Origin: an uncultured Ardenticatenia bacterium
Lineage (GTDB): Bacteria; Chloroflexota; Anaerolineae; 4572-78; NAK82
Direction: 5' to 3'
NCBI GenBank assembly: GCA_937127125.1
Contig: CAKZLO010000008.1
Location: 1-64,000, forward strand
DNA length: 64,000 nucleotides
A model generated the notes under the pieces. It was not told where the DNA came from and ran no database searches. It saw nothing but the letters and a program-made list of their open reading frames with translations. Position 1 is the first letter of the stretch. Each line of letters begins with the position of its first letter. Shown piece after piece: positions 10,727 to 58,385 of this stretch. A program made the position numbers and the translations under genes.

Positions 10727-10773
10727 AAGACGATCACCCTCCCTTTGTTCGACTTCCAGACATACAAACCCAT

Positions 10774-10802: not shown

Positions 10803-10903
10803 TTCTCGGGCAGGGCTCAGTTAAACATAGAATTGACAACAGGCGCAAGATGTGGTACATGATGTTTTATCATAACCCGAAGCGGAAAAAGGAAAGCTAC
10901 TCG

Positions 10904-10933
10904 TTGTTTTTTGTTTTATCGTTCTGGTATCCT
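10904..10933 (+). promoter_or_regulatory. Candidate promoter of the DksA/TraR-type gene
   Basis: TTGTTT, 18 bp, TATCCT in an AT-rich stretch 75-100 bp before the start codon. It diverges from the FmdB promoter. Confidence 0.3.
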
Positions 10934-11006
10934 TACATAGCATCAGCGTCGATGCCTGGCGATCTTCATAGTGCGTCGCAGGCTTCGAGGAAGAAGGGCT
11001 AGACGT

Positions 11007-29071: not shown

Positions 29072-29127
29072 AGCTGGTGCGTCTGCTTGCTCACCTTATA
29101 AGCCTGGAGTTAAAGGATTACCTCTCG

Positions 29128-39335: not shown

Positions 39336-40121
39336 TTAGTCTTCAGGGGGATAGTACCATGTCTCGCCTGGCTCCAATACCACTGGTTTCACCACCGGTC
39401 CGGTGTCAGAGTGCAAGTTGTTGATGAGAGTGAGGAATTTCTCTACATCCGGATTGCCCTTCGCTCGAGAGTAGTGGTTGGTGAGAGCATATTCCACGCC
39501 CAGCCACAGGCATGCCAGTGCTGCTTCGTGGGGGCTCATCTCTCCACAGAAAGGCACGGGAATACCATGTTTCTGCAACTGACCGCTCTCTGGCATCGAC
39601 ACACATATCAGTGCAATGTTAGGCTGATACAACTGACCGAACAATTTCAGGTCGCTGAAAATTGCGGTGTCGCCAGAGTGATACACGCGCACCCCTTCAT
39701 CCGGGTAGAAGATGAAACCCATAGGCGGCCCAGAAATGAACGTTCCGTCTGGGTATTCGATAAAGGACCAGTGCATCGAGGCCACTGAGCGCACACGAAT
39801 GCCAGCTTCGACCACCTGCAGCCCCCAGCACATGCCGCGAACTTTGTTCGGGTCCACGCCGTGGCGCACCAGGTGGTGGCGCACTTCGCCACCGCATATC
39901 ACGGGGCAGTTGAATTTGAGCGCGATTTCCAAGGTATCTCCCATGTGATCCCATGCGGCATGGGTCACCAGGACGAGATCTACCCGCTCCAAATCTTTCA
40001 CCTTGATAGGTGAGCAGTCGCTCTCGTTCAGAAAGGGGTCAATCAGCACGACTGTCCCCTGGCTGTTGGTGATGCGATAGGCAGCATTGCCTAAGAATTC
40101 AAACTTCGTCCGAGGCTTCAT
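39336..40121 (-). CDS. Metallo-beta-lactamase-fold hydrolase (UPF0173/UlaG-like)
   Basis: A 261-residue soluble hydrolase. Metal ligands are in LVTHAAWDHMGD (HxxxDH), ASMHWSF, and the late YHSGDTAIFSDL and LTNHYSRAKGNPD. The overall form resembles the UPF0173/UlaG group, which includes lactonases and phosphodiesterases acting on sugar derivatives. It is the last gene of the minus-strand catabolic run, 64 bp after the epimerase-like gene. A perfect TATAAT at 40165-40170 (minus) without a good -35 might give it some separate expression. A lactone- or phospho-sugar substrate is a guess from context. Confidence 0.75.
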   Translation of the reverse strand: MKPRTKFEFLGNAAYRITNSQGTVVLIDPFLNESDCSPIKVKDLERVDLVLVTHAAWDHMGDTLEIALKFNCPVICGGEVRHHLVRHGVDPNKVRGMCWGLQVVEAGIRVRSVASMHWSFIEYPDGTFISGPPMGFIFYPDEGVRVYHSGDTAIFSDLKLFGQLYQPNIALICVSMPESGQLQKHGIPVPFCGEMSPHEAALACLWLGVEYALTNHYSRAKGNPDVEKFLTLINNLHSDTGPVVKPVVLEPGETWYYPPED

Positions 40122-40185: not shown

Positions 40186-41181
40186 TCATTGGCCTGTTTC
40201 AGCCAGGTAACGACGGTATGTTTCAATGTAATGGGCAACGCCTTGCTCGATGTCGCCAAACTGTGGTTCGTAGCCGAGCTGTTGCCGTGCGTTCTCAATG
40301 CTGAGAACGCCGCGATAACGAATCTCAATCAAGTCGTTCTCGGATAATCCGGAGCCAATCTCAATATCTGCGCCAGGTATGAGCTTCTTCACTACCTCTG
40401 CGACCTGACCCGCCGTGACCAATGGACGCCCTGTGGCAGCATAGAAGACACGATCCTGTATTTTCTCAGCGGGGATGTCTATCGCTTTTAATACCATCTG
40501 TGTGACATCGAGGACGTGGGTGTAGTCGCGTGGGAACTCGCGGCCTTGTGCAAAACGTGTCGGCAGGCCACGTACCGAGTTTTCCACCATTGGTTTTATG
40601 TAGATCGGATACCGCATTCCAAAGCCATAAACAGCCGAAGGACGCAAGATGATATGGTCCAATCCAAAGGACTGATGATAGGCCCAACAGAAGGCCTCAC
40701 CCGCTACTTTGGCAGCAGCATAGAAGCTGCCTCCTGGTCCTTCATTCGCCAGGAAGATAGGGTGTTTGGCGTCAACCGGCTGGTACTGAATGCTCGGTAA
40801 CAAGGCGATGCTCGAGACGTAGATGACGCGAGAAACACCAAACACGCGTGCTGCTTCCAATATGTTAAATGTACCGCCAAAATTGATACTGGCTGCCAGC
40901 CCGGGACGTTTGTTGAGCAGGGGCAGGTCGACGATGGCGGCGGTGTGCACGATGACGTCCGGGGCAAATTCCCGGACCACACTGGCCACATCGCCCCACG
41001 TATCCACACCGCCTGCTACGAAGTGAATGCGATCGGCTACCGGTTTGAGCCACCAAGCCAGTTCGCCTGCGGGTTCGCGCGCGTCAAAGTTGATCACCCG
41101 ATCTCCACGTTCCGCCAGCTGGCGCACGACGTAGCTGCCCAGAAGGCCAGAACCTCCAGTCACCAGAATGGTACGTCTCAT
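40186..41181 (-). CDS. NAD-dependent epimerase/dehydratase (extended SDR)
   Basis: A 331-residue extended short-chain dehydrogenase. The cofactor loop is ILVTGGSGLLGSYVV with acid NFDARE. Catalytic Ser/Tyr/Lys are in VIYVSSIALLPS and GGSFYAAAKVAGEAF (YxxxK). The substrate part has RPSAVYGFGMRYPIYIKP and RDYTHVLDVTQMVL. It could oxidise a sugar or epimerise a nucleotide sugar. Because it follows the apionate-lactonase-like gene by 32 bp, a sugar-to-lactone dehydrogenase role is attractive. Characterised D-apiose dehydrogenases as I recall them belong to the Gfo/Idh/MocA family, so this would be a replacement. AAAGGA precedes the ATG. Confidence 0.8.
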   Translation of the reverse strand: MRRTILVTGGSGLLGSYVVRQLAERGDRVINFDAREPAGELAWWLKPVADRIHFVAGGVDTWGDVASVVREFAPDVIVHTAAIVDLPLLNKRPGLAASINFGGTFNILEAARVFGVSRVIYVSSIALLPSIQYQPVDAKHPIFLANEGPGGSFYAAAKVAGEAFCWAYHQSFGLDHIILRPSAVYGFGMRYPIYIKPMVENSVRGLPTRFAQGREFPRDYTHVLDVTQMVLKAIDIPAEKIQDRVFYAATGRPLVTAGQVAEVVKKLIPGADIEIGSGLSENDLIEIRYRGVLSIENARQQLGYEPQFGDIEQGVAHYIETYRRYLAETGQ

Positions 41182-41213: not shown

Positions 41214-43163
41214 TTAGAGCCAGTCGGCAGTGACGATGGCATATGGCAACAGCGTCAGCATGATCGTCTCCCCTTGGGCCGTGATGATCTCACCAGGTCG
41301 ACCCCGAAACTCTTCAGGTGACGTGATCGCCTGCCTGGCATTGGTCTCGTCGAGATGTCGCACGCACACCGTGGTGCCGGGGCCTGCTATGCGCACGATT
41401 TGCTGCTGGTTGGTCATGTTGGCCAGCAACGTGCGCGTCTTCCCATCCCTGCAGACGGTCAGACCGTCCACACGAAGGGTGTCGCTGGAAACAGATGGGA
41501 TGACCTGAGCGCCATTGAACTCACCAATGTCAGCAAAGACGTGGTACATAGGGAAGACCGTGCCGGGCAGTGAACGAAAGACTTCAGGTAGCGGACAGCC
41601 TTCTTCACGCTCCATGACCCCCAGCCAGCCACTTGTCTCATAGTAGGTGGCGCTGTGTACGCCGCTCTCGGCTAGGTACTTCAGGCTGCCGACAGTCCAG
41701 CCGGCACCGAACAACGACATCTGGCGAACGTCCACACGAGAGGGAAGCTGGCCCGGAGCGGGTTCTGGTTCCGGGGCGGTAGCGTTAGGGTTGAGTCGCA
41801 TGCGCAGTGTCACCGGACTGACAATGATGGGCAAGCCACCGCTGAACTGACGGGCGCTCTCAACGGTTGAAGCCTGAGCCTCTAGATTCTCTACCAAGGA
41901 AGCGTTGTCAAAGGCGTGCACCTGGGGATTGATGGAATAGGTTACCCCGTCCAGCAATTCGATTGGCGGGCGACCACGGTTCAGCTCGGCGAAAAAGTGA
42001 TTGGTGCCAGAGACGAACTGTGCTGAGGGGGCGCAGTCGGTCAAATACTGGCGAGCCAAAGCGATCCAGCGCGCAGTGGTGGACTTTTCTCGCTCGTGGA
42101 AGATCAGCCAGCGGTCGATCCGTGGTCGGCTACTACGCGCTGCAGCTCCGAGCGCACCCACTAGTGCCTTAAGCTCCTCTTCGGCTGCGTCTGAGAGAAT
42201 CAGCGCCATCTCCAGTCCGAGGCCTAACGCATTAGCTTCATCGATGGCGCGTGCCAGCTCAACTGCCCAGTTGCCCTGCGAGAACCACAGATCAGCGCGC
42301 AGGTGGGACAGATTCAACATTCCGAGACGTTGCAGCTCGCGCGCTGTGAGACGTCCTCCGTGGCTTGCCATCCCGAGTCCGATGGCGGGCAGGTTGGCTG
42401 TCGGATGACTCCCCACCTGGAATACGATCTCGTCTGTCTGCGCTCGACTGGCTGCCCCAATGGCTGTCCCCTCAATTTTCAACGTCACTGACTGAACGAT
42501 GCGCGTTCCTTGCTCAACCTTCACTGGGAAGGGTAGGGCAAGAGGGGTACAGTACGTCTTGTAGGAGGCGTCTGTCCAGTTGCGCTGGTCCTCCATCTCA
42601 AAGACGTCCCCCGCAAAGCGTACCTCAGCCCACAGGTTGGGCACCACCTGATGTTTAATAGCTTGCATATCCAAGAATGGCTGGTGCGGCGAGACGTAGA
42701 GCGGGAATGAACCTTGCTCTTGCGAGCCGTCCACCTTTTCGACAATGCAAGGCTTTCCAGCACATTCCTTGATGGGATGTAAAACACAGAAGCCGATGCG
42801 ATTACGCAAAAAGGTGGAGCGTGCTACCCCATCCATGGAAAATATGATCGTGCCGTGAGCGTCACCCTCGATGCTACCTCTCCAGAAGAAGTCGATATCG
42901 CCCTCCTTGTTCTCCACGTCGTAGCGGATCCGGAACGAGGATGAATCGGCTTCGATCTGGAGGTTGCTCAGTCGTGGCAACACAGTGCCCCAGTTGCGAT
43001 CACGCACGGCGACGTAGACACGCCGCAGTATTTCCTGATCCTCATAACGTACATAACGCAGGTCGCCTTCCTCATAGACGACTGTCAACGGCCCGGCCCG
43101 GAGCAGGTGTTGCTCGGGCAGGTCCTCGTCCTTTCCGTAGTACAGCACGTTCTTCGGGATCAT
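41214..43163 (-). CDS. D-apionate lactonase-like protein
   Basis: A 649-residue protein resembling the ApnL family, which opens D-apionolactone to D-apionate in oxidative apiose catabolism. The match rests on my memory of the family's N-terminal layout: LLRAGPLTVVYEEGDLRYVRYEDQEILRRVYVAVRDRNWG (two overlapping blocks), FFWRGSIEGDAHGTIIFSMDG, and FLRNRIGFCVLHPIKECAGKPC. No signal peptide is seen, so it acts in the cytoplasm. ATG 43163 has GGAGG 7 bp upstream, better than an ATG eight codons earlier. It lies 52 bp after the OiaC-like gene and two genes after an apionate-oxidoisomerase-like gene, which supports the call. An unrelated glycoside-processing role cannot be excluded. Confidence 0.6.
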   Translation of the reverse strand: MIPKNVLYYGKDEDLPEQHLLRAGPLTVVYEEGDLRYVRYEDQEILRRVYVAVRDRNWGTVLPRLSNLQIEADSSSFRIRYDVENKEGDIDFFWRGSIEGDAHGTIIFSMDGVARSTFLRNRIGFCVLHPIKECAGKPCIVEKVDGSQEQGSFPLYVSPHQPFLDMQAIKHQVVPNLWAEVRFAGDVFEMEDQRNWTDASYKTYCTPLALPFPVKVEQGTRIVQSVTLKIEGTAIGAASRAQTDEIVFQVGSHPTANLPAIGLGMASHGGRLTARELQRLGMLNLSHLRADLWFSQGNWAVELARAIDEANALGLGLEMALILSDAAEEELKALVGALGAAARSSRPRIDRWLIFHEREKSTTARWIALARQYLTDCAPSAQFVSGTNHFFAELNRGRPPIELLDGVTYSINPQVHAFDNASLVENLEAQASTVESARQFSGGLPIIVSPVTLRMRLNPNATAPEPEPAPGQLPSRVDVRQMSLFGAGWTVGSLKYLAESGVHSATYYETSGWLGVMEREEGCPLPEVFRSLPGTVFPMYHVFADIGEFNGAQVIPSVSSDTLRVDGLTVCRDGKTRTLLANMTNQQQIVRIAGPGTTVCVRHLDETNARQAITSPEEFRGRPGEIITAQGETIMLTLLPYAIVTADWL

Positions 43164-43215
43164 TCCTGCACCTCCAGCAATGGTCATAGCGAAAACGAGC
43201 GCGGTAATCAGCCGG

Positions 43216-44028
43216 TTAATCGGCTATGAACGCGCGCAGGTAGGCAATGCTGGATCTGGCCCATGCATCCTCAAGCGCGATGGTGTCCTCCAAGGTGGCC
43301 TGAGGAGGTGTCCACAGCTCCAAGATGGCGTTAACGTCGCGCCCCATGTGGCTTAACTTTTGCAACAGCCATGGGATGTCGAGTTGCCCCTGACCGGCAG
43401 GACGACCCTCAACCGTGAAGCCCATGTTGTGCGCGGCGCGAACGACTGCGAAATCCTTGATGTGCAGGTTCACGGTGAGGGGACCGAGCACCCTGACGAC
43501 AGCCTCTGGTCCCTCCTGAGCGCCAAACGAATTCACTGTGTCCAGACAAATGCCCACGTAGTGGCTGCCTGTGCGGTGGATGATGTCCGCCAGCGTCGCT
43601 GCTCGGAAGCGATCGTGATTCTCAATGGCCAGGCAGACGCCGGCCCGTTCGAACTCGGGGATCACTATCCGCAGCAGGCTGACCACCTCGTCAGGCTCTG
43701 GATGATGGTCAGCGGTATCGATGACCACGCGCAGGATCGGAGAGCCAAAACGTTGCGCGAGCTCTAGATAACGCAACAAATGATCGGGTGCAATGCCACG
43801 CGTACCCACCTCGATGCAGACATTCTGTTCCCTGGCACGCGTCTGGAAGGTGGTCAGCTCCTCTGGCGACAGCCGATGCAGCGGCAGATTGTCGGCTACC
43901 TGAATCAGGTGCACGCCCAGCTCGGCCGCTTTGTTCAGCAGCCCCATCATTCCCAAGGGATGTTTGGGGGGGTGGCCTGGCGCGCCAACAGCCCAGCCGT
44001 AAGTAAAGGAGCTGATGCCTAAGCGCAT
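43216..44028 (-). CDS. TIM-barrel protein like 3-oxo-isoapionate decarboxylase
   Basis: A 270-residue xylose-isomerase-like TIM barrel. MRLGISSFTYGWAVGAPGHPP, LIQVADNLPLH, IEVGTRGI and the metal-ligand strands LAIENHDRFRA (Glu), VGICLDTVNSFG (Asp), NLHIKDFAV (His) and NAILELWTPP (Glu) are visible. The order and wording match what I recall of OiaC, which decarboxylates 3-oxo-isoapionate to L-erythrulose; public annotation usually says 'sugar phosphate isomerase/epimerase'. It sits 43 bp after an ApnO-like gene and before an ApnL-like gene, the expected pathway partners. Start ATG 44028 (GGGG just upstream); an ATG two codons earlier is equally possible. Confidence 0.62.
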   Translation of the reverse strand: MRLGISSFTYGWAVGAPGHPPKHPLGMMGLLNKAAELGVHLIQVADNLPLHRLSPEELTTFQTRAREQNVCIEVGTRGIAPDHLLRYLELAQRFGSPILRVVIDTADHHPEPDEVVSLLRIVIPEFERAGVCLAIENHDRFRAATLADIIHRTGSHYVGICLDTVNSFGAQEGPEAVVRVLGPLTVNLHIKDFAVVRAAHNMGFTVEGRPAGQGQLDIPWLLQKLSHMGRDVNAILELWTPPQATLEDTIALEDAWARSSIAYLRAFIAD

Positions 44029-44071
44029 AGGCATCCCCGACAGAGAATACCGCGCACACGGGATGTCCCGC

Positions 44072-44917
44072 TCACTTTGCTGCTGCCCTTCCTTGCGTGA
44101 TGGCTTTGACCTCGGCCAGGACATTCTCGGGCTCAAAAACCTTCTTCCAGTCGGGCTGAAAGATGGTTTGTTTGGCGCGCGCGACGGCCAGCTTGGCGCC
44201 GTCCGAAAGCTGGGCATCAATGTAGCCGAACAGGATGCCGACGTTGACTTTCATATGGCCTAGCACGAAGTCGCGAGCAACCTGATAGGGTACCCCTCGC
44301 CGCACGGCCTCTTCAATGGCCTCGCTGATGACCACCTGGCACGTCAGCACCACGGTCTCTGCTAGTGCTGGTTCTAGGATGGCCATCTGTTCCACCGTGA
44401 CTCTGTAGGCGTTCATCACCGGTGCAAATGCTTTGCGCGCGATGCGTTCGCCTCTCAGGTAATCGCTTTCAGTACCTTGCATCAGGGCGCACACGATGTT
44501 CTGTTTTGCCTTACCGCCCCAGAAATCGAGACGTGCTTCCGGGTCATCCTCATCGCATACGATGGGTGGATGGCATGGATGCACAACGAAATAACTGATG
44601 TCCTTGCGCTCAGGCAGCTCGCCGCCGTACGGGGCAGCCGGGTCAAGCAGGATCACCAGAGTACCACTTTGCAGCATTGGCACCAGCTCACTGGCTACTT
44701 TTCCAATCAGAACATCGGGGATCGCCAGTATGATCACCCCTGCTTCGCGAACGGCTTCCTCCGGAGTAGAGGGTGTCAGACCGCGCTCGCGCAATCGCGC
44801 GATCCCTGCCTCTCCCGCTTCGACATACAACATGCGAAACTCTGGTGCGTCCCTAAGCGCGGTAGCGATCCGCGTGCCGATCTTCCCGGCGGCTCCAAAC
44901 AGTGCAATTGTTTCCAT
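44072..44917 (-). CDS. D-apionate oxidoisomerase-like protein, copy 1
   Basis: A 281-residue NAD-binding protein of the 6-phosphogluconate-dehydrogenase/KARI-like fold. The Rossmann loop is IALFGAAGKIGTR, followed by VIILAIPDVLIGKVA, DPAAPYGGELPERKDISYFVVHPCHPP, KQNIVCALMQGTE and the C-terminal PDWKKVFEPENVLAEVKAI. This resembles ApnO, which oxidises and isomerises D-apionate to 3-oxo-isoapionate. ATG 44917 gives the clean Rossmann start. It lies 41 bp after the GntR regulator gene. A second copy 3.3 kb upstream shares all these motifs. Family assignment is fairly firm, exact substrate less so. Confidence 0.65.
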   Translation of the reverse strand: METIALFGAAGKIGTRIATALRDAPEFRMLYVEAGEAGIARLRERGLTPSTPEEAVREAGVIILAIPDVLIGKVASELVPMLQSGTLVILLDPAAPYGGELPERKDISYFVVHPCHPPIVCDEDDPEARLDFWGGKAKQNIVCALMQGTESDYLRGERIARKAFAPVMNAYRVTVEQMAILEPALAETVVLTCQVVISEAIEEAVRRGVPYQVARDFVLGHMKVNVGILFGYIDAQLSDGAKLAVARAKQTIFQPDWKKVFEPENVLAEVKAITQGRAAAK

Positions 44918-44958: not shown

Positions 44959-45804
44959 TCAATCTGCTGACGCTACGCCCTCCCCGGCAGCTGGCTTCCC
45001 ATTTTCCCCTGTCCCATCGCCCGGGGAGGGAGGCTTGCAACCCCCTGCTTGCTGGCCGTGCTCGCTGTGCAACGCAATGGCCTTGCGCATAGTGTCCTCG
45101 GACTCGACCAAGTGCTCGCTCATGGCCCGGCGAGCGCCTTCCACATCCCCGCGCTTGATTTGCTCATAGATGGCGCGATGATACATTACTGCACGTTCTG
45201 GCGTACCCGGGACGTCAAAAGTGAACTGTCGCCACGTCAGCAAGATGTCTGCCACCGAGTCCAGCAGCAGGGAGAACAGCTCATTTTGGGTCGCGCGTGC
45301 TACAGCTGCGTGAAATGCGACATCGAACTCGGCGAAGCGATAGCGGTCGACGGAGAAAGTGCTCGCGTCGCGCAGAATCTGCTCCATCTCTTCCAAATCC
45401 TTGGGGGTGCGTCTTTGTGCCGCAAAACCGGCGTTGGCTACTTCGAGCACGCGACGAATCTCCATCACCTTTTCGCAATCAAACTCGGGATGCCCAGCAC
45501 GTAAGAACATCATCAGCGACTGTGCGACTGCGTCTGCGCTCGGGCTGCGCACCGAGGTACCACTGCCTGGTCGCACTTCTAACAGACCTTTGGCGACGAG
45601 GGAGCGCACCGCTTCGCGCACCACAGTTCGACTCACACCAAACTGGCGTGCCAGCTCACGTTCAGGCGGCAGGCGATCGCCTGGTCGCAGTTCACCTTTG
45701 ACGATCAGCTGTTCAATCTGTCCGGTCACACGGTGAACCAGCGTGGTCGAGCGCTGGATTGTTTTGAACAATTGAATCGTATCGGATACACTCTGTTCCA
45801 CCAT
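44959..45804 (-). CDS. FadR/FCD-type GntR transcription regulator
   Basis: 281 residues. The N-terminal winged helix (about 20-88) has VTGQIEQLIVKGELRPGDRLPPERELARQFGVSRTVVREAVRSL and VRPGSGTSV. The FCD effector domain (about 105-240) has metal-site residues in RFAEFDVAFHAAVARAT (Asp/His), MYHRAIYEQIKRGD and MSEHLVES. FCD regulators bind sugar acids or other carboxylates and usually repress catabolic operons. It lies within the sugar-acid island and its promoter contains half-sites related to a palindrome at two other promoters of the island, so autoregulation and local control are likely. The last 30 residues are a Gly/Pro/Ala-rich tail. Confidence 0.9.
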   Translation of the reverse strand: MVEQSVSDTIQLFKTIQRSTTLVHRVTGQIEQLIVKGELRPGDRLPPERELARQFGVSRTVVREAVRSLVAKGLLEVRPGSGTSVRSPSADAVAQSLMMFLRAGHPEFDCEKVMEIRRVLEVANAGFAAQRRTPKDLEEMEQILRDASTFSVDRYRFAEFDVAFHAAVARATQNELFSLLLDSVADILLTWRQFTFDVPGTPERAVMYHRAIYEQIKRGDVEGARRAMSEHLVESEDTMRKAIALHSEHGQQAGGCKPPSPGDGTGENGKPAAGEGVASAD

Positions 45805-45949: not shown

Positions 45950-47386
45950 CTACCTGCTCTGCTCTTCAGCCTTTACTTGTTCTCCGGAACGGACGCTAAG
46001 AATTTGAACCACTTTGAGCAATGATTCAGCATCACCCACATTGCCGGGGAAGACCACATATGTCAGACCTGGGAAACGGCTCTCAGATCCTAAACGCCAT
46101 ACAGGCACGCCAGGCAATATTTGTCCTATGACCATTGCACGCCTGACACCCAAACCATACGCGGCCACATCGCTCGACGTGATACCCCCTTTCGCTACCA
46201 GGAAGCGCGGCCGGGTCGCAATGGCGCGTACGATGGAGACCAGACCTTCTGATATACGTCTGCCGATATCGAGACTGCGCTCGGCGGTTTCGCCAGTGAC
46301 CAGTGTGCGGCTCGTGTACAGCAGGACGTTGCAATCGGCCTGCAACCGTTGATCCGTCTGTTGCGCCAAGCGTTTTACCTCCTGCTGCAACTGGCCGTCA
46401 TCGAGTAACGCCTGAACGGGGACCTCGAGGCTGCAAACATCGGACCCGGCGAGGAGAGCGTTAACCTGAGCTGTGGTGCGTGGTACATGGGAACCGACCA
46501 CAATCAGGCCGCCGTTCCCAGCGGTCAAGTCAAACTCGGTATGCTGGAGCAATGGGCGCGGCGCCAGCCCGGCGCGCACCTGTACGAAGGAGGCAGCGGT
46601 GCGATACAGAAAACGCTTTCCTTGTGCTTCGGCATGCAACAGGCCCAGAACGAACACTTGGAGGTCGCGCATGCTAGCAGCATTGACCACGCACATGCTT
46701 CCACGTCGCAGGCTGGACAGCTTCTCAAAGACCCGATTGGGGCCGCCGAGCCGCAGGTCGTCTATGCTGATGGAAGCCACATCGTCGGCACGGACGGCAC
46801 CCTTTGTTTTTTCTTCCACCCAGTGCCGCAGGTTGGAGGAACGGTAGCCGAAGACGACGTCTTGGGCAAACTCGGTTTCACCTGCTGGCACTAGTCGCTC
46901 TCCATCGGCGACATAGTGGATATCGTGGATGGTGTAGCGTCCACCTTCAAGGAAGAACGGGATAATCAGCCAGGCATCGAACTCGTGTTGCAATGCCTGT
47001 GCTAGCGCCTCCACCTCGCCAGGGAAGTGCCCGCGCAGAGTGGAATCGCTCCGGCTCACCACGACAAACTCGCGCCCTGAGCGGCGCCTCGCTTCTAGCA
47101 GGTTGTGTCCAATTGTCGCGTTGAGTGTTGCTGCCTCGGCACAGGACAGGCTGCGCGAATTGGTGAGCACATAGAAGGCGGGCAGCTCGCTCTCGAGCTC
47201 AGCGCATAGTGTCTCCACTGACCATTCTGTGAGCACAGGGATGTCGTACACCGTCTGAGTGCCGGTGGGATCGTCGTCTAGCACGACGACCTTGCGTCGA
47301 CTGGTGCGAATTTGTTTGCGAATCTCTGGCAGTAGGTCAGTTGCCCACTCTGGAGGCAACCTGTCAAGCATTTCCTGGCGATTCAT
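45950..47386 (-). CDS. DUF1537 four-carbon acid-sugar kinase, OiaK-like
   Basis: A 478-residue kinase of the DUF1537 family, whose characterised members phosphorylate D-threonate, D-erythronate, 3-oxo-tetronate or 3-oxo-isoapionate. Substrate-domain marks are VVLDDDPTGTQTV (about 34-46), LTNSRSLS and VSRSDSTLRGHFP. Nucleotide-domain marks are IVVGSHVP, FLVAKGGITSSDVAAYGL and VVFPGNVGDAESL. The ApnO-like and OiaC-like neighbours make a 3-oxo-isoapionate (or similar) kinase most plausible. The class II aldolase of the tetronate pathways and PdxA2 are absent. The start overlaps the HpaI-type aldolase gene by 23 bp. Confidence 0.85.
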   Translation of the reverse strand: MNRQEMLDRLPPEWATDLLPEIRKQIRTSRRKVVVLDDDPTGTQTVYDIPVLTEWSVETLCAELESELPAFYVLTNSRSLSCAEAATLNATIGHNLLEARRRSGREFVVVSRSDSTLRGHFPGEVEALAQALQHEFDAWLIIPFFLEGGRYTIHDIHYVADGERLVPAGETEFAQDVVFGYRSSNLRHWVEEKTKGAVRADDVASISIDDLRLGGPNRVFEKLSSLRRGSMCVVNAASMRDLQVFVLGLLHAEAQGKRFLYRTAASFVQVRAGLAPRPLLQHTEFDLTAGNGGLIVVGSHVPRTTAQVNALLAGSDVCSLEVPVQALLDDGQLQQEVKRLAQQTDQRLQADCNVLLYTSRTLVTGETAERSLDIGRRISEGLVSIVRAIATRPRFLVAKGGITSSDVAAYGLGVRRAMVIGQILPGVPVWRLGSESRFPGLTYVVFPGNVGDAESLLKVVQILSVRSGEQVKAEEQSR

Positions 47387-48191
47387 AGAGGTTCCCTTCG
47401 TAGCTCAATCTTCCTGTGCGTGCAAGTTCACGCACGAGAGCAACTCCTTCGGTCAAAGCGTCAAGGTAGATAGCAAAATCAGCCCCGAACGAGATCACGT
47501 TGAAGCCTATCTTTAACCATTCCTGCGCCTGGGCTAGGGTGCGCGGTTGAATGGCAGCAGCAAGCTTATGTCGCCTTGCCACCTCTACTACCTGTTGGAG
47601 TGCTTGAAACAGACGCGGGTGATTCAGCTGTCCAACAATACCCAAAGAGTGGCTGAGGTCAAAATGACCCACCCACAATACATCCACCCCGGGGGTGGCT
47701 GCAATTTCTTCCAGATGGTCAAGGCCTTCTTGACTCTCAATCTGGCAGATAATGGTCGTGTTTCGGTTAGCCTCTGCGAGGAACTCGGTGGCGTTGACGG
47801 GCCGGAAGTCTGTGTTGGCTGTGCCAAGTGCCACGCCACGTTCACCCAAAGGAGCATACTTGGCTGCACGGATGATGGCGCGTGCTTCGGCGCCATTTCT
47901 GACGTTGGGTGCCATAATGCCTTGTGCTCCGGCGTCCAGGCAGCGTGCAATGAAGTGATATTCGATCTGGGGAACACGCACGAAGGTGGCAATCGGAGTA
48001 CCCTTGAACAATGCCAACAGGGTAGCGACCTCCCGGAAGCCGAATCCTGAGTGTTCCATATCCACGACCACGAAGTCGACCCCGGCGCATTCGAGTATGC
48101 GCGCAATGCCGGGGGATGTAAACTCGATCAACATATGCCCCACGGGCACTTTGCCCTGCGCTAGAATTTGTCTGAAACGATTGGGTTTCAC
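47364..48191 (-). CDS. HpcH/HpaI-family aldolase
   Basis: A 275-residue (beta/alpha)8 class II aldolase of the HpaI/GarL type, which cleaves 2-keto-4-hydroxy acids to pyruvate (or a related keto acid) and an aldehyde. VGHMLIEFTSPGIARILECAGVDFVVVDMEHSGFG (start region with the acidic residue), IMAPNVRNGAEARAII, the metal-binding Glu in IICQIESQEGL and Asp in LWVGHFDLSHSLG are seen. The usual catalytic-His segment D(x)EH is present as VDMEHSG. The GTG start overlaps the ApnO-like stop (GTGA), and its 3' end overlaps the kinase gene, so oxidoisomerase, aldolase and kinase are tightly coupled. Confidence 0.9.
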   Translation of the reverse strand: MKPNRFRQILAQGKVPVGHMLIEFTSPGIARILECAGVDFVVVDMEHSGFGFREVATLLALFKGTPIATFVRVPQIEYHFIARCLDAGAQGIMAPNVRNGAEARAIIRAAKYAPLGERGVALGTANTDFRPVNATEFLAEANRNTTIICQIESQEGLDHLEEIAATPGVDVLWVGHFDLSHSLGIVGQLNHPRLFQALQQVVEVARRHKLAAAIQPRTLAQAQEWLKIGFNVISFGADFAIYLDALTEGVALVRELARTGRLSYEGNLYESPGNA

Positions 48192-49042
48192 GCGTTCGTC
48201 CCTTGTTGTCCTTGTGTAATAGCTTTGATCTCGCGCATCACATTTTCTGGCTCAAAGATCTTCTTCCAATCGGGTTGCAAGATCATTTTTCTGGCGCGCT
48301 CGGCAGCTTTTCTGGCGCCGTCAGACACCTGTGCGTCGTAGAACCCGAAGAGGATGCCTGTGAAAATACCCATGTGGCCGAGCAAGAAATCGCGCGCTGC
48401 CTCCTCTGGCACGCCGCGACGGATGACTTCGTCAAGACCCTCTCGCAGTGCCAGCATCAAGGTGAGCGCCATGGTCTCCGCCATGGCAGGTTCCAGCAGC
48501 ACCATCTGCTCGACCGTGATGCGATGGGCGCGCACCACTGGAGCAAACATTGCCCGTGCCAATGCCTCGCCACGCGCGTAGTCGGCCTCCGATCCCTGCA
48601 TCAACGCACAGACGATTGCTTGCTTGGCCGCAACCCCACCGAAAAAGTCCTGACGCGCCGCTGGGTCAGTCTCCTCTTTTATGATGGAAGGATGACACGG
48701 GTGGGTAACAAAATAGGCGATGTCGTCACGCAAAAGGAGCTCACCACCGTGAGGCGCAGCAGGGTCGAGGCAACACAGCATCGCACCGCTTTTCATCTGG
48801 GGGACGACCGTTCGGCTCACTTTGCCAATCAGAACATCCGGTATTGCCATCACAACGATGTCAGCCCGTAGTATGGCGTCCTCGAGTGGGGTAGGGATGA
48901 GACCCCGTGTACGCAGTCGTTCCTCACCTGCTCCAGAGGCTTCGACATACAACACCTCATACGCCGTCGTCCTAGCAAGATTGTTGCTGATGCGGGTGCC
49001 CATCTTTCCGGCGGCACCCAGCAAAGCCACCGTCTCGCTCAT
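48188..49042 (-). CDS. D-apionate oxidoisomerase-like protein, copy 2
   Basis: A 284-residue paralogue of the ApnO-like protein 3.3 kb away. Same blocks: VALLGAAGKMGTR, VVMAIPDVLIGKVS, DPAAPHGGELLLRDDIAYFVTHPCHPS, KQAIVCALMQGSE, HRITVEQMVLLEPAMAET and PDWKKIFEPENVMREIKAI. By eye the two share well over half of their residues, so duplication was probably not very recent. This copy is coupled to the aldolase gene. ATG 49042 has AGAGGTG 5 bp upstream. The two copies may act on different acids or stereoisomers. Confidence 0.65.
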   Translation of the reverse strand: MSETVALLGAAGKMGTRISNNLARTTAYEVLYVEASGAGEERLRTRGLIPTPLEDAILRADIVVMAIPDVLIGKVSRTVVPQMKSGAMLCCLDPAAPHGGELLLRDDIAYFVTHPCHPSIIKEETDPAARQDFFGGVAAKQAIVCALMQGSEADYARGEALARAMFAPVVRAHRITVEQMVLLEPAMAETMALTLMLALREGLDEVIRRGVPEEAARDFLLGHMGIFTGILFGFYDAQVSDGARKAAERARKMILQPDWKKIFEPENVMREIKAITQGQQGTNA

Positions 49043-49061
49043 AGTCACCTCTCATCATGTC

Positions 49062-50132
49062 TCACACAGGTTCTTCTCCGGTGGCAGCTGCCCAACGCTG
49101 TGCCAGCGATCGCAGCTTGGTCTGAAAGCCGGGCTGATGGATGACTTCGCGATTAACTGTATGCTCAGGCACTCCACCCTGCAGGACTGTCAAGACGTTG
49201 TGACAGGCGCCCAACCCATTTCCGCGGTAGAGCGCATCCGACCATGCGATGCGGTGCGGTGTCAGAATGACATTGGGCAGAGCAGCTAGCGGATGATCGG
49301 GGGGCAAAGGTTCCTGTTCAAAAACGTCCAGCCCAGCTCCCGCGATGCGACGTTCCTGTAGAATGGCCACCAGGTCTGCCTCCTTGACGATCCCACCGCG
49401 CGCCACGTTGACAAAGAACGCGGTTGGCTTCATCAGAGAGAGCAGCCTACGGTCGATCATGCCCCTTGTTTCATCATTAAGAAGGCAGGCGACCGCCAGG
49501 AAATCAGACTCACGAAACAGGGTCTCGAGATCAACCAGCTCTACACCCAGCCGCTGCGCTTTGGTAGGGCTCGCGTAAGGATCGCAGGCAAGCATACGCG
49601 CTGGACCGAAGGCGTGAATTAGCCGAAACATCTGGGAAGCGATGTTGCCCAACCCTACTGAGCCGAACACTTTCCCGGACAGGCTGACACCGCTGTTTTC
49701 GATTGTAAGATCGCGTCCTCCGCTGCGCGTGAGCCGGTCCCTAGCTGGCAAATTCTTAGCCAACGCTAAGAAAAAAGCCAGAATGCCCTCCGCAACTGGC
49801 TGGCGCACCGCTTCAGGGGTGATGGCAAGCAAGATGTCTGCAGCAGTACACGCTGGCACGTCAACCATATCATAGCCAGCTCCCCAGCGCGCGATGATCG
49901 TCAGGCGCTCATTCCCGATCAGCGATGCCGTGGTATATCGTGGTTTCAGGGTGATCACCGCGTCGTAACCTCTGATATCGTCTGATACCACCACATGGCC
50001 TTTCACCGGGAAGAAGCAACACTGTACGAAGGGGAGCGGACCGAACACTTGGTCCAGAAAAGGCTCTAGCAATCCAGGAGCATCACTTTTGAAATCATCA
50101 GAAACGCCAACACGGAAAGAGATCTCTTTCAT
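49062..50132 (-). CDS. D-2-hydroxyacid dehydrogenase
   Basis: A 356-residue NAD-dependent dehydrogenase of the phosphoglycerate/glyoxylate-reductase family. The Rossmann loop is VFGSVGLGNIASQMFRL with acid CDPYAS; catalytic Arg is in FVNVARGGIV, Glu in LDVFEQEPLPPDHP, and His in VILTPHRIAW. The N-terminal half carries RYTTASLIGNERLTIIARWGAGYDMVDV. It reduces a 2-keto acid or oxidises a 2-hydroxy acid. It is the first gene of the unit dehydrogenase - ApnO copy 2 - aldolase - kinase, driven by a promoter with a palindromic operator. ATG 50132 was preferred over a start 18 codons upstream because it lies downstream of that operator. Confidence 0.9.
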   Translation of the reverse strand: MKEISFRVGVSDDFKSDAPGLLEPFLDQVFGPLPFVQCCFFPVKGHVVVSDDIRGYDAVITLKPRYTTASLIGNERLTIIARWGAGYDMVDVPACTAADILLAITPEAVRQPVAEGILAFFLALAKNLPARDRLTRSGGRDLTIENSGVSLSGKVFGSVGLGNIASQMFRLIHAFGPARMLACDPYASPTKAQRLGVELVDLETLFRESDFLAVACLLNDETRGMIDRRLLSLMKPTAFFVNVARGGIVKEADLVAILQERRIAGAGLDVFEQEPLPPDHPLAALPNVILTPHRIAWSDALYRGNGLGACHNVLTVLQGGVPEHTVNREVIHQPGFQTKLRSLAQRWAAATGEEPV

Positions 50133-50172
50133 CAGTTTCTCTCGACTATGATCGGGTCCTGTCTCCAGCTTT

Positions 50173-50232
50173 TGGTATGCTGGCATACCATACGATGAAA
50201 CAAACTATAAATTTTCCCTGGGACTATGTCAA
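50173..50232 (-). promoter_or_regulatory. Operator-controlled promoter of the dehydrogenase-kinase operon
   Basis: Minus-strand TTGACA (50227-50232), 17 bp, TATAGT (50204-50209). Starting about 7 bp after the predicted transcription start is the perfect palindrome TGGTATGC-TG-GCATACCA (50173-50190). A near-identical element sits at the same position downstream of the 59.3-kb promoter. The form suits a FadR/FCD-type GntR repressor. Confidence 0.78.
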
Positions 50233-50343
50233 TTCTTGAACCGGGGTGAGCTTCAAGGAGGGCACATCCCTGCAAGCAATGACACGGTCTATGAGCACTT
50301 TTCTTAACCTCTCATTTGCCCTGACCTGCTGCCATGCCCCAAT

Positions 50344-51501: not shown

Positions 51502-51508
51502 CTGTTGT

Positions 51509-52864: not shown

Positions 52865-52954
52865 CAAAATTCTCCTCTGGTAATCTATCTGTGCCCCACA
52901 AGCAACAGCTTCTGAAATGCTGCCTTACCGCTGCGACACGCACAATGCACTTGT

Positions 52955-53830
52955 CTATGTGTAGAGTGGCAGCCCGTCTGTTCCGACGTCGAATACTTCG
53001 ATCGTACCGAATTCGTCCTCGGTGACGTAGAGCTTGTGGCTGCCCGGAGGACCAAACACACAATTGGTGGGCATTTTACCCTCTGTCTTGATACGCTCGA
53101 CCACCTGACCATCAGGTCCGAGCACTGTGACATCTCCTTGACCGAAGACGGTCACATATAGGCACCCATTCGCTCCAAACTTATGTCCGTCCGGGAATTT
53201 CATCTGAGCCGGGCTGTCTGGGTCAGCTACGTTGCCGAAGTATTGCCGGCCACTGACGATGTGACCATCTCGCCACTCGTAGCGCCAGACGATGGCCGGG
53301 ATCATCTCGTTCACATACAGGTTTTCATCCGGTCCAAAGGCAATGCCGTTCGGGAACTTCATTCCCGAGTCGATCTTGACCACCGCGCGAGTTTTGGGGT
53401 TGATCCGGTAGATGCGTCCATCCATTGGGCAAGTGGCCCAATCGGGTCGCACTTTCCCTCCCGGCGCGAAATCCTTAACCAGGATGCCCGAATCGGTCAT
53501 GTAGATTTCGCCGTCAGGCCCAATCGCTAAATCATTGGGGAAGAGAAATGGTTCGCCGTCGCACTCGGTTGCGAACACCTCAATCTGACCATCCATGGTG
53601 ACGCGCAGCAGTGCGGGCAAACTTCCCGACTCGGCCACCCAGATATAACCATGCCGATCTACTGCCAGTCCGTTGGGCCGACCAGTCCTGGCAATAATGC
53701 GCTTCTCCTTTCCATCGGGGCTGATATGGGTCACGCATCCGCGATCCGACCCCATCTCAACCACCAGGAAGCTGCCATCCGACAAGAGCACCGGTCCCTC
53801 GGGTACACTGAGTCCTGTACAGAAGATCAT
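52955..53830 (-). CDS. SMP-30/gluconolactonase-family protein
   Basis: A 291-residue six-bladed beta-propeller lactonase. Metal ligands are in LSVPEGPVLL (Glu), FLFPNDLAIGPDGEIYMTDSG (Asn), FPNGIAFGPDENLYV and KFPDGHKFGANGCLYV (Asp). These enzymes hydrolyse sugar lactones. It has no signal peptide. GGGAGG precedes the ATG. With the ApnL-like protein it gives the island two potential lactonases, suggesting more than one lactone substrate. Confidence 0.9.
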   Translation of the reverse strand: MIFCTGLSVPEGPVLLSDGSFLVVEMGSDRGCVTHISPDGKEKRIIARTGRPNGLAVDRHGYIWVAESGSLPALLRVTMDGQIEVFATECDGEPFLFPNDLAIGPDGEIYMTDSGILVKDFAPGGKVRPDWATCPMDGRIYRINPKTRAVVKIDSGMKFPNGIAFGPDENLYVNEMIPAIVWRYEWRDGHIVSGRQYFGNVADPDSPAQMKFPDGHKFGANGCLYVTVFGQGDVTVLGPDGQVVERIKTEGKMPTNCVFGPPGSHKLYVTEDEFGTIEVFDVGTDGLPLYT

Positions 53831-54579: not shown

Positions 54580-55407
54580 CTATTTCACCGCGCCTAGGGT
54601 TAGGCCACGGACCAGATAACGTTGCATTAAGAAGCTAATGATGAATAGAGGGAACATAGAGACAATCGAAGTAGCCCCAATTTCACCCCACTGCACCATC
54701 ATTTTGCCGAAGAAGTTCACGATGTAGACCGAGAGCGTTACGGCTTGCGACTTAGTTATCGCAACGGCGAAGAAGAACTCAGCCCAAGAGAAAATGAAAC
54801 AGAAGACCCCTGTGGCCACCAATCCGGGCGAGACTAGTGGAAGAGCGATGCGCCAAAATGCACCCAGTGGTGAACACCCATCCACCAGAGCCGATTCCTC
54901 GATTTCGCGAGGTATTTCCATAAAGAAACCTCGCATCATCCACACCGCATAAGGCAAGTTGAAAGTGAGGTAGATGAGGATGAGCGCTTGATGAGTGTCC
55001 ATCCATCTCAGCGCTTTGAAGAACAGCAGAAACGGAAAAATGACAGCGACAGGTGGCATAAAGCGCTGCGACAGGATGAAGAAGGGAAGATTGTCCCCAC
55101 CCACCCGGTAGCGTGCCAGTGCATAGGCAGCCAGTGAACCTATCAGAAGCGCCAGAAGCGTGGTCGAGGTAGAAATGATAAGGGTATTGCTCAACGCCTT
55201 CAGGCCGCCCGTCTTGATCACATGCTCGAAGTACACCAGGCTGGGCGTCTGAGGGATCCACACCGGGGGATTCCTCAAGAACTCATTGGGTGTCTTGAAG
55301 GCTGTCAAAACGATCCACACGATCGGAAACAGGAAGAACGCGAGAGCGATCAACGCGATGGGATAGCGAATAGCCTGCGACAACCACTTACGCGTGTGTA
55401 AACCCAT
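54580..55407 (-). CDS. ABC sugar permease, MalG type
   Basis: A 275-residue inner-membrane permease with six helices. The coupling (EAA) loop reads EIEESALVDGCSPLGAFWRIALPLVSPG, typical of CUT1 importers for oligosaccharides or sugar derivatives. The ATG at 55407 has AGGTGA 7 bp upstream. It follows the MalF-type gene by 148 bp. No dedicated ATPase gene is in the window; a shared MsmK/UgpC-like ATPase is common for such systems. Confidence 0.94.
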   Translation of the reverse strand: MGLHTRKWLSQAIRYPIALIALAFFLFPIVWIVLTAFKTPNEFLRNPPVWIPQTPSLVYFEHVIKTGGLKALSNTLIISTSTTLLALLIGSLAAYALARYRVGGDNLPFFILSQRFMPPVAVIFPFLLFFKALRWMDTHQALILIYLTFNLPYAVWMMRGFFMEIPREIEESALVDGCSPLGAFWRIALPLVSPGLVATGVFCFIFSWAEFFFAVAITKSQAVTLSVYIVNFFGKMMVQWGEIGATSIVSMFPLFIISFLMQRYLVRGLTLGAVK

Positions 55408-55555
55408 AGTCACTCACCTGTGCTTATGAACTACTATTGTCACTTACATTGCAGTGCTGGGCCCAAGACCCACAGCAGGAACACTTCATGTCGCACCCCA
55501 CGTCAGGTCAAACCTACGGAATGCACACTTGATTCGGTGACCTGCTCCATCTCCA

Positions 55556-56476
55556 TCAACCTTCCACCGTTGCTCTGAAGGCTTTGAGCAGATAGGTCAG
55601 AAACAGGGCTAAGAAGACAAGCAATACAAAAGAGGCCGCAGCGCCATAGCCGAGGCGGAAGAACTGATAGCCCGTCTGGTAGATGTAAAATGAGAGCGTC
55701 TCTGTAGAGTTGCCTGGCCCCCCGCCGGTCAGCGTGAAGATGATGTCAAAGAATTTCAGCGCATCAAGCCCCCGAATGAGAAGCGCCACAATAATGATGG
55801 GTCGCATCAAAGGCAACGTCATGTACCAGAGCTTGGCCCATCCAGAAGCGCCATCGATGTCCGCCGCCTCAAAGACTTCTGGATCCATCACAGCCAGACC
55901 AGATAGGAAAACGAGGAACATAAAAGGTGTCCACTGCCAGATCTCGGTCACCAGGATGGCGAAGAGTGCCGTTTCCGTTTTGGCCAGCCATGTATAGGTG
56001 AAGGGTTGCCCGATGATCCAGCCGATAATCTGATTGATGGGACCATATTGCGCGTCCCAAAGAAGCCGCCACGTGTAGCCCACCACTACTGGCATCACCA
56101 TCACTGGCAACAGCAGAGCTGCCACAATGACCCGCTTGCCTTTCATCTCGCCCGACAACAACTGAGCCAGGCTAAAGCCCAGACCAAATTCGACGCTTAC
56201 GCCCACTACCACGACGAGCAACGTGATCAGCAAAGAATGGAGGAAACGCGGTGTGCTGAACAGCTCAATATAATTGCCCAGTCCAATAAACGGTCGTTCC
56301 TGCAGGCCAATTTCCCATTTGGTCAGGCTCAGACCTAGAGAGTAGATGGTTGGGAATATTGTCACCAGCAGGATAACCAACATACACGGGGCGACGAACA
56401 TCCAGGGGATGAGATTGCGTTTTCTGCGCTGAGGCATCCCCGAGCTCATTGCTATGGCCTCGCTCGCAGCTGCCAT
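55556..56476 (-). CDS. ABC sugar permease, MalF type
   Basis: A 306-residue permease with six helices (PWMFVAPCMLVILLVTIFPTIYSLGLSLTKWE at the start). Its coupling loop is EVFEAADIDGASGWAKLWYMTLPLMRPI. TLTGGGPGNSTETLSFYIYQTGY is the usual MalF-family ending motif. ATG 56476 has GGAGG 9 bp upstream, better than a start 11 codons earlier. It partners the MalG-type permease and the binding protein. Confidence 0.94.
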   Translation of the reverse strand: MAAASEAIAMSSGMPQRRKRNLIPWMFVAPCMLVILLVTIFPTIYSLGLSLTKWEIGLQERPFIGLGNYIELFSTPRFLHSLLITLLVVVVGVSVEFGLGFSLAQLLSGEMKGKRVIVAALLLPVMVMPVVVGYTWRLLWDAQYGPINQIIGWIIGQPFTYTWLAKTETALFAILVTEIWQWTPFMFLVFLSGLAVMDPEVFEAADIDGASGWAKLWYMTLPLMRPIIIVALLIRGLDALKFFDIIFTLTGGGPGNSTETLSFYIYQTGYQFFRLGYGAAASFVLLVFLALFLTYLLKAFRATVEG

Positions 56477-56575
56477 TTGTGTCGTCCTCCAACCTCTCTT
56501 GAGAGTCACGTACAGCGTATCGTGAAGCCTATGTCAGTCGTCATCCAAGTAATCTAGATACCAGTTACATGTGAT

Positions 56576-56613
56576 CGGTGCCCCGCAGGCTGTCATGTGT
56601 CCACGGGGCACCG
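56576..56613 (-). other. Stem-loop between binding-protein and permease genes
   Basis: Perfect 10-bp arms (CGGTGCCCCG / CGGGGCACCG) and an 18-nt loop, without a T-run. In this position such stems often protect the upstream message or partly stop transcription, giving more binding protein than permease. Confidence 0.5.
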
Positions 56614-56631
56614 ACACGTGGGTGGTCTATC

Positions 56632-58116
56632 TTACTCCGTTGGCACCTCGACCGTGGGCCCAAGGCGGTTCCACGGGTTCTTCAGCCACTGCTCATACGC
56701 TTTCTTCTGATTCTCGACGCCGAGTCGCTCAGTGATGGCATCCCACTTGGCGGCTGCTTCATCCAGAGCAGCTTTGGGGTCTTTACCGGCGTATGCAGCT
56801 GTGAGGGCATTATCAATGGCCTCCATATATTCGCGCGCGCCCGGGATGCCCAGCTCATACTGGCCGGACATGCCTGCCTTCTTGAGGGTGTCAAGATACT
56901 CACCAGCCTCGGGCCAGGCGGAGCGGTACAGCGGCGAGCTGAAGTGGGACAGGCGATAGGGGTCGCGCAAAGCGAATGGGAGCATCACGCGCTGCAGACT
57001 GATATCCGGGCTGGTCATCCACTGGATGAACAGATAGGCCGCTTCCTTGTTGGCGCTGGTGGCGGTGACGCACATGTTGAAACCACCTGCCAGCGTGGGA
57101 CGCCCACCCGGCTGCGGCATATAGCCCACCTTGCCGACAACCTTGCTGGCCGGCACCCAGGCCAGCTGCTTGGCCGTGTCACCGTACCCGGCTGACCAAC
57201 GGCCAATGGGTGGCCACGTGACGATCATGGCCACTTTGCCGTCCATCCAGGCGCTCAAGACTTCCATAAAGCCCCACTTTTCGACGCCAGGCGGCATCAC
57301 CTTGTTCTGTTTCACCATATCGGTGAGCAACTGGACGCCGATGTCGCTGTTAATGGTGGCCTTCATATTCTCGTCGAAGAACTGGCCGCCGCGGCCGCTG
57401 AAGGGACCGACAAACCAGGAGTAGGCTTGACCCTCGATGCGCTGAATGGCCAGTCCGTAGAGCTCGGGCGCATATTTGTTGGTGAAGAATTCAGCGGCAT
57501 CGTACATCTGCTGCTCCGTCTCGGGAGGTACCAGCTCGTAGCCATACTTCGCCTTGAACTCAGCCTTGTTGGTCTCATCCTCAAATAGGTCCTTGCGGTA
57601 GTAGAGGATGAAGACGTCCCCATCGTCATACAGGCCGTAGGTAACGCCGTTGATCTTCATGACCCCTTCGGAGCGATAGACCGGCAGGAAGTCCTCCATG
57701 TCGGCCGGGTTCATGTACTTTTCGATGTAGGGATCCAGCGGCTCCAGAGCACCAGCGTTGACATAGTCCTGCATCCACATTGGGGACAGGTCGATGGCAT
57801 CGTAGGCGCCACCGCCGGTCAGATGGTCCTGCAGCGGTTTGGTGTACATGTCCAGATAGGCCAGCTCGATCACGTTGACCTTGATGCCGGTCAGCTCCTC
57901 CCAGATTGGGGCCATCGTCAGGGGATCTTGTGCTTGCAATCCAGCCTCACGCACATAGTTGATCGTAGTGCCCGCGAATTTCTTGGCCGCCTCGACGGCG
58001 CACTGTGATGAACTGCCCTGGCAAGGTTCCTGCGCGTACGCAATCGGAGCCGCCAGGCCCAGCAGCATGGTGACTGCCAGCAAGACACCTAGAACCTTGA
58101 ACATTTTGGTACTCAT
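56632..58116 (-). CDS. Extracellular sugar-binding protein of the ABC importer
   Basis: A 494-residue family-1 solute-binding protein. A signal peptide (about 1-28: MSTKMFKVLGVLLAVTMLLG ... IAYAQ) lacks a lipobox. Mature-domain marks include INYVREAGLQAQDPL, YDAIDLSPMWMQDYVNAG, FILYYRKDLF, GKVAMIVTWPPIGRWSA and LAGGFNMCVTATSANKEAAYLFIQWMTSPD. It delivers a sugar or sugar acid to the two permeases just downstream. ATG 58116 has GGAGGAGG 6 bp upstream. The ligand is not readable from sequence; context suggests apiose, apionate or a related plant-derived compound. Confidence 0.9.
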   Translation of the reverse strand: MSTKMFKVLGVLLAVTMLLGLAAPIAYAQEPCQGSSSQCAVEAAKKFAGTTINYVREAGLQAQDPLTMAPIWEELTGIKVNVIELAYLDMYTKPLQDHLTGGGAYDAIDLSPMWMQDYVNAGALEPLDPYIEKYMNPADMEDFLPVYRSEGVMKINGVTYGLYDDGDVFILYYRKDLFEDETNKAEFKAKYGYELVPPETEQQMYDAAEFFTNKYAPELYGLAIQRIEGQAYSWFVGPFSGRGGQFFDENMKATINSDIGVQLLTDMVKQNKVMPPGVEKWGFMEVLSAWMDGKVAMIVTWPPIGRWSAGYGDTAKQLAWVPASKVVGKVGYMPQPGGRPTLAGGFNMCVTATSANKEAAYLFIQWMTSPDISLQRVMLPFALRDPYRLSHFSSPLYRSAWPEAGEYLDTLKKAGMSGQYELGIPGAREYMEAIDNALTAAYAGKDPKAALDEAAAKWDAITERLGVENQKKAYEQWLKNPWNRLGPTVEVPTE

Positions 58117-58385
58117 CGGGTCCTCCTCCATTCATGGATCATAGAGTTTCAATGGTTGAGCAACTACACTGTTGTTCGTCATACCGCTCTCATTTCTGAC
58201 AGGCCATCTTTGCCTCCTGAGTAACCGTTTTTGCCCGATTTGCTTTTCCACTTGCGAACACGTCCGTCTCCGAGCAGGCCAAACTCGGGGACTACACTAA
58301 TCACGCGACTGCCACGTAGGAATAGCTTTGCCGATCGACCTCGAGCGATGTCTGTTAGGATGATCTTCTCGCGATAACGCGTGTC
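58117..58385 (-). other. Intergenic stretch with unused ribosome-binding sites
   Basis: This 269-bp gap holds no gene I can support. On the minus strand, a near-perfect Shine-Dalgarno AAAGGAGGTGA covers the end of the isomerase gene with no usable start codon after it. AGGAGGCAAAG precedes a five-codon ORF (ATG at 58207, M-A-C-Q-K). No clear promoter for the binding protein is seen, so its gene is probably transcribed from the 59.3-kb promoter. Decay of a small gene is one explanation. Confidence 0.4.

Follow-up and report, generated by a model that had tools for sequence, protein, structure and literature searches.

A probable oxidative D-apiose pathway of the decarboxylase form in an uncultured bacterium of the Chloroflexota

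Known routes of D-apiose degradation

Apiose is a branched plant sugar whose oxidative route of degradation is, as far as we know, best documented for Pseudomonadota and certain gut bacteria. In the decarboxylase branch of this route, ApsD, ApnL, ApnO and OiaC reportedly act first, followed by LerK and LerI. Here we describe three consecutive genes encoding ApnO-, OiaC- and ApnL-like proteins (positions 41214-44917) in a stretch of 64,000 nucleotides, hereafter the window, from an uncultured Ardenticatenia bacterium. We consider it probable that together they form the core of a decarboxylase-type oxidative route for D-apiose. The operon that contains them is, in our view, genuine but unexceptional, adding one more example of a pathway that is already known and is spread over many bacterial phyla.

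Two further routes are relevant. A branch that relies on a kinase and a RuBisCO-like protein (RLP), comprising ApsD, ApnL, ApnO, OiaK and OiaX, has been reported for strain LCG007 (PMC11747546), and the Shinella locus L014 is an example of it. The non-oxidative pathway employs the AplK kinase and the AptA/AptB transketolase, encoded by a cluster in Escherichia coli SE15 (PMC13001218).

The window operon resembles the decarboxylase branch in joining an ApnO-family protein, an OiaC-type TIM barrel and an ApnL-family protein, with OiaX and OiaK undetected, but differs from it in having no ApsD, LerK or LerI; identity to proteobacterial comparison proteins is 31-33% for ApnL and 33% for the OiaC-like protein. 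The ApnL and ApnO steps, and a NanR-type GntR regulator beside ApnL, are shared with the OiaK/OiaX branch, whereas OiaX is found neither in the operon nor in the genome and the DUF1537 kinase of the operon is not OiaK by model score. Likeness to the non-oxidative pathway is limited to split transketolase genes upstream; no FGGY kinase was seen in the window cluster, and the resemblance of the transketolases to those of SE15 is too low to show apulose specificity. Finally, the ApnL cluster of Mesorhizobium pWSM1497 (L015) has counterparts of the window's HpcH aldolase and 2-hydroxyacid dehydrogenase genes, which are separated from the core by a few genes, but shows neither the ApnO nor the OiaC that the window has.

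The core genes and their products

The window belongs to contig C8 of a genome of hot-spring type, 3.7 Mb in size and 95% complete. A preliminary description of this DNA had placed it in the Chloroflexota, correctly: a genome of the same genus is the public metagenome-assembled genome (MAG) Ardenticatenia bacterium Nak82. It had also described the three core genes in this order, flanked by a GntR regulator and a short-chain dehydrogenase/reductase (SDR), and this holds as a set of family and neighbourhood calls, all three reading frames being intact and on the minus strand. Between 39 and 64 kb, that strand carries a long series of sugar-acid genes, which includes, in order, apnO2, an HpcH aldolase, a DUF1537 kinase, GntR, apnO1, the oiaC-like gene, apnL, an extended SDR and a metallo-hydrolase. 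Gaps from GntR through the SDR measure roughly 28 to 41 bases each (about 37 between apnO1 and the oiaC-like gene, about 28 between the latter and apnL), and the apnO2, aldolase and kinase genes overlap by a few bases. Two congeners and a relative from the same family (L021) keep the core gene set, which is therefore not a product of chance.

ApnO1 groups with the ApnO proteins of apiose operons. It scores 183 bits against PF16896 (cut-off 25), has an N-terminal Rossmann domain with the nucleotide motif GAAGKIG and, in a sequence search of the PDB, matches 5t57 (E 3e-79), which we take to be a Cupriavidus protein whose structure was solved as part of work on apiose, and 3c24 (E 2e-67). In a tree of 36 sequences, ApnO1 and ApnO2 fall inside a clade (93/86) that holds 5t57 and the ApnO proteins of the Shinella and Sinorhizobium apiose operons, in agreement with the assignment made earlier. 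The two share a 10-row subclade (97/92), the other members of which come from loci with an OiaC-like gene and no RLP seen. At 94-95% identity in congeners, ApnO1 shows the highest conservation among the core proteins.

The OiaC-like protein matches PF01261 (AP_endonuc_2; E 2e-23, 84 bits), and its AlphaFold model is a TIM barrel with a predicted local distance difference test score (pLDDT) of 94. E137, D164, H190 and E238 are invariant in the 11 aligned rows of its clade and fit what we take, from general knowledge, to be the metal site of this fold. No NCBIfam model is matched by the protein or by its Erwinia counterpart, and a PDB sequence search yielded a single chance match only. In-frame ATGs at 44034 and 44028 are candidate starts; the frame from a TTG at 44220, given in a mechanical listing, overlaps apnO1, and that TTG is an unlikely start.

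It is the company kept by the OiaC-like gene that points to its role. Of 199 genomes sampled from the class, 14 have ApnO, and all of these have the OiaC-like gene, as do 7 of the 185 without ApnO (p 1e-16); the corresponding figures for ApnL are 11/14 and 8/185 (p 7e-11). These p values overstate the case because genomes are treated as independent, the 14 with ApnO representing seven families. In most loci the oiaC-like gene and apnO are direct neighbours. A scan of a public genome collection for ApnL gave at least 579 confirmed relatives, of which 80 were kept and 79 loci, some on short contigs, were used for neighbourhood counts. OiaC occurs in 9 of the 19 of these loci that have ApnO and in none of the 60 that lack it (p 4e-7). 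Among the 19, nine have only RLP, five only OiaC, four both and one neither; RLP and OiaC thus mostly alternate, as would be expected if they served alternative decarboxylation steps.

Within the host genome, too, the decarboxylase branch fits best, because no RuBisCO-like OiaX or OiaK was found in it. The DUF1537 kinase reaches 66, 47 and 27 bits against the DtnK, OtnK and OiaK models, all far under their cut-offs (700 for OiaK), and a PDB sequence search with it gave no match.

The sole RuBisCO-family protein of the genome, encoded on contig C35 (48000-67999 of the contig, at 9607-10953 of that locus, L024), was rejected as OiaX on score (95 bits against 700 on the matched stretch) and context. 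Its best model is mtnW-like (223 bits against 409 on the matched stretch), and its gene adjoins a xylose-isomerase-like TIM barrel and a GntR/UTRA regulator, just upstream of genes for the E1a, E1b and E2 components of a thiamine diphosphate-dependent dehydrogenase, a context with no obvious methionine-salvage or apiose setting.

The ApnL-like protein matches NF049900 (D-apionate lactonase) over its length, but at 357 bits it stays far below the curated cut-off of 750. Shinella ApnL scores 813, but in L050, L065 and L061, whose operons are more complete, ApnL scores 334, 338 and 350, and a low score therefore reflects distance between phyla and is not by itself a sign of another function. The motif FEMEDQRNWxDxS and several charged residues do not vary in any of the rows compared; the motif and R130, H137, H424, D427, R464, D486 and R488 are found in rhizobial ApnL as well.

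The AlphaFold model of this protein (pLDDT 92) combines a GH30-type glycosidase-like clan-A barrel with an N-terminal beta-sandwich, although ApnL-like proteins have no Pfam family or solved relative by sequence; a PDB sequence search with the window ApnL gave no match. No conserved glutamate was seen after strand 4 at the positions checked.

The proposed pathway

From the genes, families, neighbourhoods and co-occurrence described above, we infer the following scheme. D-apiose would first be oxidized, a candidate enzyme for this step being an unlinked Gfo/Idh/MocA dehydrogenase discussed below. ApnL would open the ring of D-apionolactone to give D-apionate. ApnO1 is predicted to act on D-apionate by oxidation and rearrangement, NAD-dependent oxidation at C2 being coupled to migration of the carboxyl group, a carboxyl-moving chemistry likened to that of ketol-acid reductoisomerase-type enzymes, to yield 3-oxo-isoapionate. 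The OiaC-like metal-binding TIM barrel would then decarboxylate this compound to L-erythrulose and CO2. Entry of L-erythrulose into central metabolism would proceed via a DAK-type kinase; the genome has one DhaK/DhaL pair, on contig C34 and unlinked to the operon, which could phosphorylate it. The GntR regulator probably controls the operon, and the MalEFG-type ABC transporter encoded upstream probably feeds the pathway.

An Erwinia plasmid operon offers a useful parallel. It comprises ApnO, an OiaC-like TIM barrel, a gene resembling triose-phosphate isomerase and a DAK-like kinase gene, a layout that we take to be that of the L-erythrulose branch.

Several observations weigh against the scheme. 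The most important is that OiaC-like genes stand together with RLP and/or OiaK in L044, L051, L068, L103 and L165, and there a second decarboxylase would be superfluous. In the tree of the OiaC clade, the link to the Erwinia OiaC-type protein is weak, at 33% identity and over long branches, Erwinia itself serving as an operon-based proxy for an assayed OiaC; we know of no protein of this clade with biochemical evidence. Neither LerK nor LerI was found in the cluster, and no Gfo/Idh/MocA gene is among the annotated operon genes of the window genus. A FastTree phylogeny of ApnL, with local support values only, places the window protein with relatives from clusters without ApnO. The ApnL of L021 lies in a different part of the tree, and the gene may for that reason have been exchanged within the family. 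Because of the company of its nearest relatives, the substrate of ApnL is the least secure inference in the pathway.

Alternative readings

This placing of ApnL is one argument for the first alternative, namely that the true substrate of the cluster is another sugar lactone or acid, either branched or with four to five carbons, the same ApnO/OiaC chemistry being applied to a relative of apionate and ApnL having been recruited from another pathway. The ApnL subclade in question holds loci with a 2-hydroxyacid dehydrogenase and HpcH (L034, L035 and L041) and loci with GHMP, epimerase and ADH genes (L019 and L020), all without ApnO, and the window itself has HpcH, 2-hydroxyacid dehydrogenase, DUF1537 kinase, SMP-30 and second ApnO genes. 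However, ApnO1 and OiaC tend to occur together and group with proteins of apiose operons, and the congener L016 lacks several of the extra genes yet keeps ApnL, OiaC and ApnO1. We regard this alternative as unlikely.

A second alternative, in our judgment rather unlikely, holds that the OiaC-like TIM barrel is an isomerase or epimerase of ApnO pathways, regardless of the decarboxylation branch. The loci that combine it with RLP and/or OiaK would be explained in this way, and a fold search with its model returned general isomerases and epimerases as best matches. Within this superfamily, though, reaction type cannot be predicted from fold matches, and the search is uninformative on the reaction; moreover, ApnO loci without RLP usually have OiaC and most RLP loci do without it, as alternatives would.

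An improbable variant gives the ApnO-OiaC pair a different branched sugar acid as substrate, in place of D-apionate, supplied by a front end of the extended SDR and the ApnL-type lactonase. If true, this would be a lactone pathway not yet described that shares the carboxyl-migration and decarboxylation chemistry.

Returning to the apiose scheme, the enzyme of its first step has also to be considered. The preliminary description proposed that the extended SDR could supply this step, as a non-homologous apiose dehydrogenase; it would then replace the Gfo/Idh/MocA-type ApsD. In each of the family's five loci the SDR gene adjoins apnL, no Gfo/Idh gene is part of the operon in the window genus, and extended SDRs such as uronate dehydrogenase are known to oxidize sugars into lactones. 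Yet in L021, from the same family, one operon has both an orthologous SDR and a Gfo/Idh/MocA dehydrogenase that resembles those found in apiose operons; a relative of the SDR (46%) in the thermoleophilian locus L085 stands with an ApnL relative, a DUF1537 kinase and an aldolase, with no ApnO or OiaC detected; and a Gfo/Idh candidate exists elsewhere in the genome. An apiose dehydrogenase role for the SDR is therefore not supported and, in our view, improbable. That the SDR serves an adjacent acid-sugar route is more likely than that it stands in for ApsD. No close characterized relative of the SDR was found, and orthology with a protein annotated as D-erythronate dehydrogenase was rejected (29% over 204 residues).

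The unlinked gene (C76:8070-9059) appears to be the better candidate for the first oxidation. Its product is 51% identical to that of L061, and the gene has the same flanking genes in the congener G002. Gfo/Idh/MocA genes are present in the operons of L061, L105 and L092 as well as in those of Shinella and Sinorhizobium, and the C76 protein falls within the wider clade derived from such operons, inside a 9-row subclade whose members come mostly from other contexts.

Other genes of the cluster

The features of the locus are collected in Table 1. The GntR regulator has orthologues next to ApnO in the congeners and at a distance of one gene from it in L021. The metallo-beta-lactamase-fold hydrolase is 96% identical in the congener L017. 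Upstream of the nine genes listed above are those for a 2-hydroxyacid dehydrogenase, an M24-type protein, an amidohydrolase, SMP-30, a putative cyclase, the ABC transporter, an IolO-like TIM barrel and transketolases. The 2-hydroxyacid dehydrogenase is 45% identical to the one whose gene accompanies HpcH and ApnL in Mesorhizobium L015, and relatives of the solute-binding protein, MalF and MalG follow ApnL in L042 and L059.

Table 1. Features of the sugar-acid gene cluster in the window
Feature	Position	Strand	Evidence and remarks
Metallo-beta-lactamase-fold hydrolase (UPF0173/UlaG-like), possible second lactonase	39336..40121	-	NF001911 128/144 bits; PF12706
Extended SDR	40186..41181	-	PF01370 E 9e-38
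apnL-like, proposed D-apionolactonase	41214..43187	-	NF049900 E 2e-106, below cut-off
oiaC-like, xylose-isomerase-like TIM barrel, proposed 3-oxo-isoapionate decarboxylase	43216..44034	-	PF01261
apnO1, D-apionate oxidoisomerase-like (Rossmann + PGDH_C)	44072..44917	-	PF16896 E 4e-54
GntR/FCD regulator, NanR-like	44959..45804	-	PF00392 + PF07729; NanR model 138/260 bits
Four-carbon acid-sugar kinase (DUF1537 type), not OiaK	45950..47386	-	PF07005 + PF17042
HpcH/HpaI aldolase	47364..48191	-	PF03328; absent from congener L016
apnO2, second ApnO-family protein	48188..49048	-	PF16896 E 1e-59; 60% to apnO1
D-2-hydroxyacid dehydrogenase family	49062..50186	-	PF02826
SMP-30/gluconolactonase-like	52955..53830	-	PF08450
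Sugar ABC transporter: MalG-, MalF-type permeases + solute-binding protein	54580..58131	-	Solute-binding protein PF01547
Second TIM barrel, IolO-like epimerase	58386..59213	-	NF041099 249/300 bits
Split transketolase (C and N halves)	59343..61162	-	NF004559 halves; 36-39% to E. coli SE15 halves named aptB/aptA

Part of the cluster varies between strains: in L016, the block corresponding to window positions 47364-52867 (HpcH, apnO2, 2-hydroxyacid dehydrogenase, M24 and amidohydrolase) is absent between the kinase and SMP-30 genes. The window has two split transketolase pairs (29077-30943 and 59343-61162) and a 789-residue transketolase-like protein (61177-63546), and a further split pair is found on C34. 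As candidates for an apulose-4-phosphate transketolase the split pairs were set aside, since identity, at 36-45% in both pairs of the window and below that in the C34 pair, does not discriminate such a role.

Distribution

Among the 80 ApnL relatives kept, apiose-type neighborhoods, in which an ApnL relative accompanies ApnO plus OiaC or RLP/OiaK, occur in Chloroflexota, Thermomicrobiota, Acidobacteriota, Planctomycetota, Verrucomicrobiota, Bacteroidota, Gemmatimonadota and Armatimonadota, the phylum assignments of MAGs following public record titles. The wider distribution of the pathway suggested by the preliminary description is thus real, but the window is not special in this respect, as many phyla have the same neighborhoods and the Chloroflexota themselves have more complete operons. 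Those with the full set of steps are L061 (Gfo-ApnO-OiaC-ApnL), L105 (ApnO-OiaC-Gfo-ApnL) and L092 (ApnL-Gfo-ApnO-OiaC). No description of apiose use by Chloroflexota was found in the open literature, outside which most subscription journals lie.

A recurrent unit of a different kind, consisting of a 2-hydroxyacid dehydrogenase-type gene, an HpcH aldolase and an ApnL relative with no ApnO detected, was seen in L034, L035, L041, L058 and Mesorhizobium L015. HpcH and 2-hydroxyacid dehydrogenase genes co-occur in ApnL loci (5/7, p 4e-4), and the unit is probably another lactone pathway.

Conclusions

The 60 of 79 scanned ApnL loci in which no ApnO was detected within reach mean that ApnL homologues alone are no marker of apiose use; the tight pairing of ApnO with OiaC is a better one. 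The oxidative apiose route reaches far into uncultivated phyla, and in the Chloroflexota it takes the form of compact ApsD-ApnO-OiaC-ApnL operons.

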